From contig NZ_CP053833.1 of NCBI RefSeq assembly GCF_013201935.1, positions 1,922,001 to 1,986,000 of the forward strand: a stretch of DNA of 64,000 bases. Reading direction: 5' to 3'. The stretch's first letter is position 1, and each line of letters opens with the position of its first letter. This document shows positions 59,984 to 64,000 of this stretch, one piece after another. The position numbers and the translations under genes are program-made. Source of the stretch: Arcobacter cloacae (GTDB lineage: Bacteria > Campylobacterota > Campylobacteria > Campylobacterales > Arcobacteraceae). The notes beneath the pieces were generated by a model. The model was not told the origin of the DNA. It saw only the letters and a program-made list of their open reading frames with translations, and searched no databases.

Positions 59984-60068
59984 GCGGTTATGGTGGAACG
60001 GTAGACACACTACCTTGAGGTGGTAGCGCCCTACGGGTGTGCGAGTTCAAATCTCGCTAACCGCACCA
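59984..60068 (+). tRNA. tRNA-Leu (anticodon GAG)
   Basis: The 85-nt sequence folds as a class II tRNA. The acceptor stem is GCGGTTA/TAACCGC (59984-59990 with 60058-60064), followed by discriminator A and an encoded CCA. The anticodon arm is CTACC-TTGAGGT-GGTAG with anticodon GAG. A long variable arm (CGCCCTACGGGTGTG) and the T-arm GCGAG-TTCAAAT-CTCGC are complete. It lies next to the right-hand accessory region and is a plausible integration site. Confidence 0.98.
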
Positions 60069-60212: not shown

Positions 60213-63200
60213 TTAATTTACTCTTTCAACATCTACTGTTTGATTATTACCTTTAACTTTAATTTTAAATCCAAAATTCGACTGATAAATAATAACATCA
60301 GGATTATATGAATAAGAATAGCTATAGGCATATGTTGATTGTTTCCATTTTTGACCATTAATAAGCTCAATAATTGTATTCCCATCCCAGCCATTAAAAG
60401 TTCCTTTTATTTTACTTTGAATAACATTATTTAATTTTTCTACTACTACTTCTTTATTTGTACCATCTATTTTCATTTTATATTCATTTGAAGAAAATGC
60501 TATTGTTCCTTTAGGCATAAATGAATAATTGTTTAGATAGCAATATTCTACTTGTTTCCAAATTTCACCATTTGTAAGCTTGATAATAGTTTCTCCATCC
60601 CATCCCTCAAAATCTCCATCAACTTGTACATCTATAACACTATTAGGATTTAATAAATTTATATTAAAATCTTTATTGATTTTCTGCTCTATTTCTTCAA
60701 TATTAGATAACTCATTTGATTCATAATAATCATTTTCATTGGGTTTCTTTTCCCAATCCATACTACCATATTCATTCTCTATATCATTTATAGTACTCTC
60801 TATATATTCACTTGGATATTCTGAGCTAAATTCTTCATGTAATACATTACTTAACTCATAAGGTCCTCCGAATAAGTACTGATACCCACCTTCTTTAGTT
60901 TCATAAGGTAAAAAATTAGCAGGATCATCATAATTATCAAAAAACCAATCTTTCATTTCTGAAATTGCTAAATTTTTCTCTTCTAAATCATCGTCTGTAT
61001 TTCTATTTCTTGACGGATAAATATATAACAATCGTTCATTATCATTTTCATAAACATTACAATCTTTATCTACACCATATATAGAGCTACCATCATATTC
61101 AATAGTATATTGTTTTTTTACTAATAATGAATTATTATTTATTATATTACTTGCGTTATCATTTATTGCAAATTTAACTTCATTTAAATCATCTTGAATT
61201 TCATCTATTAGATCCATTAAATACGTAGTATCGAATTCATAAGAAATTAAAAAACTATCATTAGGAACATCATCTTCATCTGAATAATCCTCAGAATCAT
61301 ATACATATTCTCCCTCTGAATAAGGGATTAGATTTTCAATAAATTCTTCCAATACTTCTTCTTTCTCTTCTAAAGTAGAATAAAAAGTATTTTCATTTTC
61401 ACTTGAATCATCATAATCATCTATATCATTCTCTCTTGAATTAAACTCTAAAGAACAACTACCTTTTAAATTAATTATTCCACGACTCGAAACATCTCGA
61501 TGATTTTTAATTCCAATAGGATATTCCCAACAACTGAAAGTAATACTCATTTCATTAGAGCAAGTATCACAAGTCTTATAATATTCAGCCTCATGTTCTA
61601 TTTCTGCGCCCATATCACCTTCACTACCATTAACTTGTTCCCAATCTAATTCTTTACAATTTAAAGAATAAGCTGTATTACATTTCTCACAATTAAACGT
61701 TATATCTGGAATAATATCATTTGTTTTTAATTGATTTTGTATTTTATGAAGCGACCAATCAATTGGTTCAATATTAAGATTTTGCAAAATTTCATTTGTT
61801 TTAGAAAAATGTTTACAACCAAAAAAACCTTTATAAGATGAAAGTGGACTTGGGTGTGATGAAGTTAAAATATGATGTTTAGATTTATCAATTAATTTTG
61901 TTTTAGCAATTGCAGACTCTCCCCAAAATATAAATACAATATCACTACAATTTTCACTTATATATTTAATAATATTATCTGTAAATATTTTCCATCCAAC
62001 ATTGTGATGTGACTTTGGTTTTCCTTCTTCTACTGTTAAAATGCTATTTAAAAGTAGTACTCCTTGCTTTGCCCAAGACTCTAAACTTACAATACCATTA
62101 TAATCAATATTAAGATCATCTTTTAATTCTTTAAAAATATTCATTTGTGATGGTGTTGGTTTATTATTAAGAAGGAGAGAATATGCTAAACCATCTGCTT
62201 GATTAATACTATGATATGGATCTTGTCCTAAGATTACAACTTTTATAGAATTGAATTTTGTAATTTCAAAAGCCTTATACCAATTCTCTTTTGGAGGTAA
62301 TATAATTTTTCCATTCTTTTTTTCATTATCAAGAAAATTCTGAAGCTTTTTAAAATATTCTTTTTCCCACTCTTTTTTAAAAATATCTTTCCAAGAAGAA
62401 ATACTTTTATTTAAATTCTTTTCTGCTAATTTATCACTCTCAAAACCAGTTGCAACAATAGTGATTTTTACTTCATCTTTTTCTAATGTACTATCAGAAG
62501 TTGTTCCAAAAATAATCTCAGCGTTTGAATCCATTCTATCATTAATAGTTCCCATTACATCATTGATTGCAAATAATGAAACTTGTGGATGAATATTAAA
62601 GTGAATTAAAATACCTTTTGCACCATTTAAAGAGACTTTATCTAGTAAAGGAGAATCAATAGCATCTTCTAAAGCTCTTTGCGCAGCATTTTTTCCTTTA
62701 GCTTGACCAATTCCCATTAATGCCATACCTTTATGTTGCATAATAGTTTTAACGTCTGCAAAGTCAGTATCTATATCTGATTTTTTGGGATTTAAAACAA
62801 TTTCTGACATGGCATTAATAGCATTTAACAAAATATTATCAATTAGTTTGAAAGCATCTTTCATACCAATATTTTCATCAATTATTTCTAATAACTTATC
62901 ATTTGGAATTATAATTATTGAATCACTTACTTTTTTAAGTTCTTCTAATCCATGATCTGCAATTTCAGCTCTTTTTTTACCTTCCCAAGTAAATGGCTTT
63001 GTAACAATTGAAATAGTTAGTGCTTCAACTTCTTTTGCAATTTGAGTAATAATAGGTGTAGCACCGGTACCAGTTCCTCCACCCAAGCCAGCAGAAATAA
63101 AAACGATATCAGCACCTTTTAAAGAATTTTTTATTTCTTCATAACTTTCAAGAGCAGAATTTCTACCAATTTCTGGTTTCATACTTGCTCCAAGTCCTTT

Positions 63201-64000
63201 CGTAAGTTTTTTACCTAACTGGATTTTCTTTGAAGCATTAGATTTATTAAGTACTTCTAAATCAGTATTAGCTGCAATTAAATCTATTTTAGTAATACCT
63301 TCGTTTATAATGTGATTAATCATATTACAACCAGCACCACCAACACCAACAGCTACAATACGTATATTCTTTGAAGAATTAGTTAGGAACTCTGTTCTAC
63401 TATCCTCTTCAATATTTTTATCAGATATAGATATATAGCCATTTTGCAAACTATTAGCTAATTCTTTATATTTTCCTCCCATTTCTTTAAGTACGGAAAC
63501 AGATATTCTTGCAAATTCTCTATCTATTTCAGTAAATTCTTTATTTTCTTTTATTGATGATGGATCAATTATATAAGATAAAAAGTCAAAATTTCCACCT
63601 TGTTGCTGAATTATTTTTGATAATTTATCTGTAGTTTCAAAAGCTTTTTTTGGACCAATTTTTTTAATAAGTTTTTTTCGAATACCTTCTTCTTCATTCT
63701 CTGATTTATAAAATTGAAAAAAACCATTTACCTTATTCTCTCTGTTAATTATATTACTTATTAATATCTCACTTAAATGTTCCTGATTACTTTCAGATAA
63801 AAAATTTTGTTGAACTAATTTCATAATTGGAAAAGTTAGAGGTATCAAAGCAAATAACTCTAATAGTTCTTTTGATAAACTGCTTGCATACTTATAAAAA
63901 TTTTTTAGCCTATTTTCTGTTTCTATATCATTTTCTATCTTTAAAAATTTGTATTCACCAGTAAAGTCTTCTATTTCAAATATTGCTCCATCTATTCTAT
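60213..64000 (-). CDS. FtsZ-uracil-DNA glycosylase fusion protein, N-terminus outside the window
   Basis: The frame is open from the stop at 60213 through base 63998, so the gene starts right of the window; a TTG at 63848 is internal. Numbering from that TTG: residues 1-137 (LTFPIMKLVQQNF, then REFARISVSVLKEMGGKYKE) resemble a helical module of SUMF1/caspase/TIR-linked conflict proteins. Residues 162-470 are a full FtsZ domain (GVGGAGCNM, AGLGGGTGTGATP, DTDFADVKTIM). Residues 484-702 are a complete family-1 uracil-DNA glycosylase (GQDPYH at 541, HPSPLS at 665, NIEPIDW end). A zinc ribbon (C720/C723, C760/C763), an acidic linker, a GGPYE domain (about 960-1040) and two GWDG repeats (about 1070-1209) follow. 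Role unknown; a defence function is inferred. Confidence 0.93.
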   Translation of the reverse strand, partial: RIDGAIFEIEDFTGEYKFLKIENDIETENRLKNFYKYASSLSKELLELFALIPLTFPIMKLVQQNFLSESNQEHLSEILISNIINRENKVNGFFQFYKSENEEEGIRKKLIKKIGPKKAFETTDKLSKIIQQQGGNFDFLSYIIDPSSIKENKEFTEIDREFARISVSVLKEMGGKYKELANSLQNGYISISDKNIEEDSRTEFLTNSSKNIRIVAVGVGGAGCNMINHIINEGITKIDLIAANTDLEVLNKSNASKKIQLGKKLTKGLGASMKPEIGRNSALESYEEIKNSLKGADIVFISAGLGGGTGTGATPIITQIAKEVEALTISIVTKPFTWEGKKRAEIADHGLEELKKVSDSIIIIPNDKLLEIIDENIGMKDAFKLIDNILLNAINAMSEIVLNPKKSDIDTDFADVKTIMQHKGMALMGIGQAKGKNAAQRALEDAIDSPLLDKVSLNGAKGILIHFNIHPQVSLFAINDVMGTINDRMDSNAEIIFGTTSDSTLEKDEVKITIVATGFESDKLAEKNLNKSISSWKDIFKKEWEKEYFKKLQNFLDNEKKNGKIILPPKENWYKAFEITKFNSIKVVILGQDPYHSINQADGLAYSLLLNNKPTPSQMNIFKELKDDLNIDYNGIVSLESWAKQGVLLLNSILTVEEGKPKSHHNVGWKIFTDNIIKYISENCSDIVFIFWGESAIAKTKLIDKSKHHILTSSHPSPLSSYKGFFGCKHFSKTNEILQNLNIEPIDWSLHKIQNQLKTNDIIPDITFNCEKCNTAYSLNCKELDWEQVNGSEGDMGAEIEHEAEYYKTCDTCSNEMSITFSCWEYPIGIKNHRDVSSRGIINLKGSCSLEFNSRENDIDDYDDSSENENTFYSTLEEKEEVLEEFIENLIPYSEGEYVYDSEDYSDEDDVPNDSFLISYEFDTTYLMDLIDEIQDDLNEVKFAINDNASNIINNNSLLVKKQYTIEYDGSSIYGVDKDCNVYENDNERLLYIYPSRNRNTDDDLEEKNLAISEMKDWFFDNYDDPANFLPYETKEGGYQYLFGGPYELSNVLHEEFSSEYPSEYIESTINDIENEYGSMDWEKKPNENDYYESNELSNIEEIEQKINKDFNINLLNPNSVIDVQVDGDFEGWDGETIIKLTNGEIWKQVEYCYLNNYSFMPKGTIAFSSNEYKMKIDGTNKEVVVEKLNNVIQSKIKGTFNGWDGNTIIELINGQKWKQSTYAYSYSYSYNPDVIIYQSNFGFKIKVKGNNQTVDVERVN

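Follow-up and report, generated by a model that had tools for sequence, protein, structure and literature searches.

Integrated decoys in plant NLR immune receptors are copies of a pathogen's target, fused into the receptor as bait. In bacteria, the closest described relatives of the locus reported here are the VMAP ternary systems (MoxR-vWA-VMAP), in which a protein with a vWA/SAV_2336 N-terminus has MoxR directly upstream, is accompanied by a gene in the VMAP position, and carries a variable domain after the vWA module (PMC7159879). Kaur et al. (2020) regarded the domains in this variable slot as effectors, mentioned rare FtsZ/tubulin domains and suggested decoys (PMC7159879). For uracil-DNA glycosylase (UDG), we note that the word 'uracil' is absent from their text, and that a DNA-glycosylase domain is mentioned there only for the GAP1-N1 GTPase systems (PMC7159879). 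In contrast, Dore et al. (2024) proposed an antigen-sensing role for the DGR-diversified FGE/CLec domains of vWA proteins, with the VMAP N-terminus as the effector (PMC10907252). CapRel-Ebc, described in 2026, is triggered only by the complex of T7 Gp0.4 with FtsZ (PMC13423816). MoxR-vWA systems with acquired cellular domains, the rare occurrence of FtsZ in them, the decoy idea and the sensing of FtsZ with a phage protein are thus already published, while a literature search found no description of a tandem FtsZ-UDG sensor, its host origin or its split conservation.

The Arcobacter cloacae locus shares with the VMAP ternary systems all of the features listed above, but has two near-intact proteins of the host lineage in tandem, where those systems have mostly inactive or FGE domains. 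With the DGR-diversified vWA-CLec proteins it would have in common a sensor slot on a vWA protein, a MoxR relay and an effector at the VMAP N-terminus; however, both FGE/CLec and an element-borne reverse transcriptase are absent here, and specificity would derive from host mimicry. As with CapRel-Ebc, the trigger would be FtsZ with a phage inhibitor attached to it, but CapRel is a toxin-antitoxin system using free cellular FtsZ, whereas here FtsZ lies within the vWA protein, beside UDG. Compared with the plant decoys, the present case is bacterial and has a different receptor fold, and its decoy role is one that we infer.

The fusion gene

The window (the whole stretch of 64,000 nucleotides that was analysed) had been described in a first-pass annotation as encoding FtsZ joined to UDG in a single uninterrupted minus-strand frame. 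Checking of the open reading frame and its translation confirmed that the frame is open and that the FtsZ domain and the family-1 UDG are both complete. As a description of the entire protein it falls short, since FtsZ-UDG is the middle of the protein and not its whole: the vWA module, a C-terminal part of 510 residues and the operon had been missed. The full frame has 1,604 codons (G000:C1:1982213-1987027, minus strand, where G000 is the A. cloacae genome and C1 the contig). It starts with TTG, has AAGGAG 5' of the start codon, and runs from window position 60213 to about 65027, so that positions 60213 to 64000 (minus strand) lie in the window and about 1 kb, including the TTG near 65027, lies beyond its edge.

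The domain order is SAV_2336-type vWA, FtsZ, UDG and then about 510 C-terminal residues. The vWA/SAV_2336 module (residues 23-480) occupies 63597 to 64000 on the minus strand and extends beyond the window edge to about 64970; its match to NF041121, at 191.7 bits, is slightly below the 200-bit cut-off, and relatives with the same module were found. The FtsZ domain (residues 546-877; 62406 to 63401, minus strand) gives an equivalog match to TIGR00065 of 378 bits (cut-off 295), and the UDG domain (residues 877-1097; 61746 to 62408, minus strand) matches the uracil-DNA glycosylase model NF003589 with 297 bits (cut-off 223). The fused FtsZ is without the C-terminal tail by which the free protein meets FtsA/ZipA-type partners: the cell's own FtsZ ends ...IPPLMRDYIVQYPLN, and the fused copy passes into UDG. 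The C-terminal part (60216 to 61745, minus strand) contains a Cys-rich stretch, a HEPN/RES-NTD1-like region (60741-60944, minus strand) and two SH3-like repeats, which resemble each other. AlphaFold predictions from single sequences (P0005, P0004) had pLDDT values of 34-35, and were set aside.

Housekeeping ftsZ, adjoining ftsA, and ung are both present elsewhere on the same 2.62-Mb contig, and the fused copies are no replacement for them. An artefactual join of ftsZ and ung, through assembly or sequencing, would have been indicated by near identity of each half to the cell's own gene. The fused FtsZ and UDG are only 84% and 64% identical, respectively, to the products of the cell's own ftsZ and ung, and because these genes are located elsewhere on the same contig the join is excluded for practical purposes; the synteny with relatives and the clean att sites described below also argue against it.

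The operon and its mobile element

Directly upstream of the fusion gene, on the same strand and with a gap of 13 nt, is a gene for a MoxR AAA+ ATPase of 324 aa, which aligns over its whole length with the MoxR proteins of two other genomes of the order (G119 and G131). Beyond it, outward from the fusion, come genes for a 517-aa hydrolase/VMAP-like protein, a 228-aa protein and a 461-aa protein, and all five frames are open. The 517-aa protein has an N-terminal serine-hydrolase domain (DUF676; PADLOC model 3.7e-23) and occupies the VMAP position. Its match to VMAP-C is marginal, with 11.6 bits for PF20028 (cut-off 27) and 8.2 bits for an iterated profile; its counterpart in G131 gives 32.7 bits. 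Profile searches gave no match for the 228-aa protein, which is encoded on the same strand. The 461-aa protein (G000:C1:1990354-1991736; L005:15351-16736) has an R-x4-H motif, RNSISH, which is probably of the HEPN kind. A stretch of about 100 residues close to the C-terminus shows weak matches to ORFs of 490-520 aa in five genomes of the order.

The operon is located at one end of an integrative element, which is 29.4 kb long and inserted in tRNA-Leu(gag) (59984 to 60068, plus strand). The 26-bp att repeats are the 3' end of the tRNA: attL, GAGTTCAAATCTCGCTAACCGCACCA, is at 60043 to 60068 on the plus strand (C1:1982043-1982068), and attR is at G000:C1:2011415-2011440. A tyrosine integrase gene is found immediately inside the far end, and the element also carries genes resembling those for TraG/D, primase and ParA. 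When the tRNA and the far flank are joined into one query, this matches contiguously in the sister-species genomes G300 and G302, and therefore the integration site is empty there. No reverse transcriptase is found on the 29.4-kb element; a genome-wide profile search located RVT_1 matches at C1:219694 and on a second contig, C2. The suggestions of the first-pass annotation that there is a tRNA integration site next door, and that the setting is that of a conflict system, are both borne out.

Searches of 299 genomes of the order Campylobacterales and of other loci found the vWA-FtsZ-UDG fusion in one genome only. IMG/VR, searched with the vWA module and with FtsZ-UDG peptides, held no relative. 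A plasmid search returned vWA relatives that were all below 60% identity, and no match spanning 80% of FtsZ-UDG. The congener G299 has an isolated remnant of the C-terminal part (G299:C1:2472740-2473432; L066:9740-10433), with 86% identity to fusion residues 1210-1438 and surrounded by transposase and integrase-like genes, which points to a related vWA gene having formerly been present in this genome.

A variable slot after the vWA module

The search of the 299 genomes with the vWA module produced three relatives, and in all three an FGE-sulfatase/C-lectin domain directly follows vWA (by Pfam in two of them). A domain search found no FGE domain in the fusion protein. In G119 and G131, MoxR and a VMAP-position protein are encoded upstream, the latter with a caspase or TIR N-terminus and, in G131, a VMAP-C match above the cut-off. 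Pieces of the C-terminal part of the fusion are shared with the G119 and G131 proteins, which carry FGE instead of FtsZ-UDG. FtsZ-UDG thus fills the slot equivalent to that of FGE/C-lectin in the relatives.

A wider sample gave a similar picture. The slot contains FGE in 23 of the 32 other loci that had enough sequence, where about 450 residues past the vWA module could be read, and WD40, NB-ARC, GUN4, TPR or caspase domains in the remainder. In a comparison of 20 loci, the genes follow the order VMAP-MoxR-vWA wherever the upstream side is covered.

Origin of the two domains

A tree of FtsZ across the genus places the fused copy inside the subclade of the host species with support of 100/100, on a long branch (0.27), while free FtsZ copies in that subclade differ by 0 to about 0.01. 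In the tree of whole UDG, placement with the host clade (p-AU 0.3) is neither shown nor rejected. Because the whole UDG is too diverged to place, only its C-half is informative on origin: this groups with ung of the sister species (96/87), inside a group made up of the cell's own, G300 and G303 genes (83/85). From the tree positions of FtsZ and the UDG C-half it is concluded that both domains derive from the host lineage or close congeners; the vWA system itself is rare and mobile.

Uneven conservation

Sequence change is distributed very unevenly along the fused FtsZ. Compared with the cell's own FtsZ, 49 of 201 positions are changed in the N-domain and 3 of 112 in the C-domain. Distant free FtsZs of the genus have no such contrast (39-51 changes in the N-domain and 24-45 in the C-domain), and the difference from them has p values of 4e-5 to 7e-8. 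The dN/dS ratio is about 0.2 overall and about 0.02 in the C-domain. For dS the values are 0.56 (N-domain) and 0.65 (C-domain) and the bootstrap intervals overlap, whereas those for dN do not. Simple gene conversion from the resident ftsZ, considered as a source of the near-identical C-domain, was rejected because the dS of this domain to the cell's own gene is as high as that of the N-domain. The C-domain DNA groups with that of G308 (83/88), to which it also has its nearest dS (0.305), and the conserved part may be a recombinant block from the ftsZ of a congener and not the product of selection. Selection or recombination, either way these parts stay host-like. UDG follows the same pattern, with 56 of 109 positions changed from the cell's own UDG in the N-half and 16 of 102 in the C-half, although the contrast is weaker in comparisons with individual free ung genes (median p 0.01, up to 0.26). 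Both N-parts also differ at many sites that are otherwise invariant (29/168 in FtsZ and 24/103 in UDG).

FtsZ positions are given in E. coli numbering, and changes are counted against the host's own FtsZ. As stated in the first-pass annotation, the GTP signature GGGTGTG and the T7 loop are present, the T7 loop being kept apart from G204K, K at 205 and N207D; the T4 loop is that of the cell's own protein. The loops required for polymerisation are altered (G21A, Q47E, G71S, G204K, K at 205 and N207D), and the changed T1, T2, T3 and T7 residues belong to loops in both polymer interfaces. Q47K has been used as a monomeric FtsZ mutant (PMC13423816). The UDG likewise has the annotated GQDPYH and HPSPLS motifs, with the catalytic Asp, Asn and His. 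Its loops that contact uracil and DNA are altered at positions that do not vary among the congeneric ung genes examined: F952Y, which we take to be the uracil-stacking Phe (F77Y in E. coli numbering), G943S (the G after DPYH), and the Pro loop, where NPPS has become PTPS.

Phage inhibitors of both FtsZ and UDG are documented (PMC13423816, PMC11897509, PMC3961180, PMC10303552). Gp0.4 protects FtsZ segments 199-206, 262-270 and 292-303, and Icd contacts H10-S9 (PMC13423816, PMC11897509). Within 214-316 only 2 of 103 residues differ, and segments 262-270 (0/9) and 292-303 (0/12) and the Icd contacts (0/7) are unchanged. By contrast, 4 of the 8 residues in 199-206, the portion of the Gp0.4 site in the synergy loop, have changed, which counts against a role as bait. 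In UDG the loop HPSPLS...GFFG is retained; its apical Leu is trapped alike by Ugi, p56 and SAUGI (PMC10303552). By this alignment-based comparison, both domains combine fast-changing N-parts with preserved C-parts bearing most of the known phage-inhibitor faces.

Possible function

The presence of two virus-attacked cell proteins inside one protein of a defence class suggests built-in bait. The balance of probability tips slightly, in our view, towards a mobile MoxR-vWA (VMAP-type) conflict system, in which the vWA sensor carries host FtsZ and UDG as integrated bait. As in an integrated decoy, the putative bait comes from host proteins that pathogens target, on the evidence of the trees and the documented phage inhibitors. 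More specifically, but more tentatively and a little short of an even chance, it may be an immune receptor whose two integrated decoys, acquired by a mobile element from the host lineage, sense phage proteins that inactivate division or uracil repair; selection, or recombination with congeneric ftsZ/ung, would keep the inhibitor-binding parts of these decoys host-like. We infer that inhibitor binding, signalling, effector action and defence would proceed as follows. A phage protein that disables host FtsZ (Kil/Gp0.4/Icd-type) or Ung (Ugi/p56/SAUGI-type) would also bind the matching sensor domain; its docking on the bait would alter the complex of vWA and MoxR; and MoxR, through its ATPase, would then switch on a partner effector that kills or arrests the infected cell. 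The likeliest candidate for this effector is the serine-hydrolase domain of the VMAP-like protein encoded upstream, and the HEPN-motif protein may act as well. This would fit the scheme of Dore et al. (2024), in which the vWA protein senses and the VMAP N-terminus acts. The equivalence of the slot, the host-lineage origin, the split conservation, the largely preserved inhibitor faces and the direct precedent of CapRel-Ebc speak for integrated bait. Against it stand the changed synergy loop, the possible recombinant nature of the FtsZ C-domain, the effector role given to this slot by Kaur et al. (2020), the marginal VMAP match of the hydrolase gene and the single occurrence of the fusion.

It is unlikely, though deserving of consideration, that FtsZ-UDG is instead an effector, released once VMAP-MoxR is triggered. 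The tail-less FtsZ would co-assemble with the Z-ring and poison division, or passively soak up phage proteins, and the UDG would attack uracil-containing DNA. An effector role has been assigned to slot domains, among them cell-division domains and the rare FtsZ (PMC7159879), and the loss of the FtsA/ZipA-binding tail from a mostly intact GTPase core, together with the retained UDG catalytic motifs, would suit such a role. However, a polymer poison needs working interfaces, and residues of T1, T2, T3 and T7 are altered; UDG by itself is no evident toxin; it is the inhibitor-binding side that stays preserved; and the slot mostly holds the ligand-binding FGE domain. Slightly less likely still is a relic, that is, a chance capture of host genes that has drifted since and is retained only because the element is recent. 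The many changes at otherwise invariant sites in the N-parts and the restriction to one genome are what a relic would look like, but the intact 1,604-codon frame, the five open genes, the low dN/dS ratios of FtsZ and above all of its C-domain, and the occurrence of two unrelated phage targets side by side in a sensor slot are not. The function proposed in the first-pass annotation, a GTP-driven filament that focuses uracil excision on foreign DNA, draws on the GTP-binding signature and the catalytic Asp, Asn and His of UDG, all of which are kept. It is improbable, given the changed loops of both FtsZ interfaces (Q47E, G71S, G204K, N207D), the absent FtsZ tail, and the F77Y change and altered Pro loop of UDG; moreover, the switch is supplied by the vWA-MoxR context instead.

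If the integrated-bait reading is correct, immune receptors with built-in copies of pathogen targets occur in bacteria as well as in plants. The locus is also relevant to the disagreement over whether the vWA-fused domain of MoxR-vWA ternary systems is a sensor (Dore et al., 2024) or an effector (Kaur et al., 2020), a question that known phage peptides make testable, since inhibitors of FtsZ and of UDG are available. The slot could in addition serve to discover phage targets in other hosts.

Other FtsZ fragments and slot domains

A free ORF of 111 aa in A. cloacae (G000:C1:1565605-1565940; L067:3606-3941, minus strand) resembles the FtsZ C-terminal domain only. It adjoins a WYL-type regulator-like gene, and G299, G300 and G302 have matches of about the same size. 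G299 has a second copy of its ftsZ 3' end (L065:5468-5887), which lies downstream of ftsZ on the other side of a transposase insertion; this extra partial FtsZ was considered as a second fusion and rejected, being an IS-linked duplicate of the genome's own ftsZ 3' end. Finally, three vWA proteins of this family from cyanobacteria (L106, L114, L119) have GUN4, a tetrapyrrole-pathway protein, in the variable slot, and these domains too may be host-derived.
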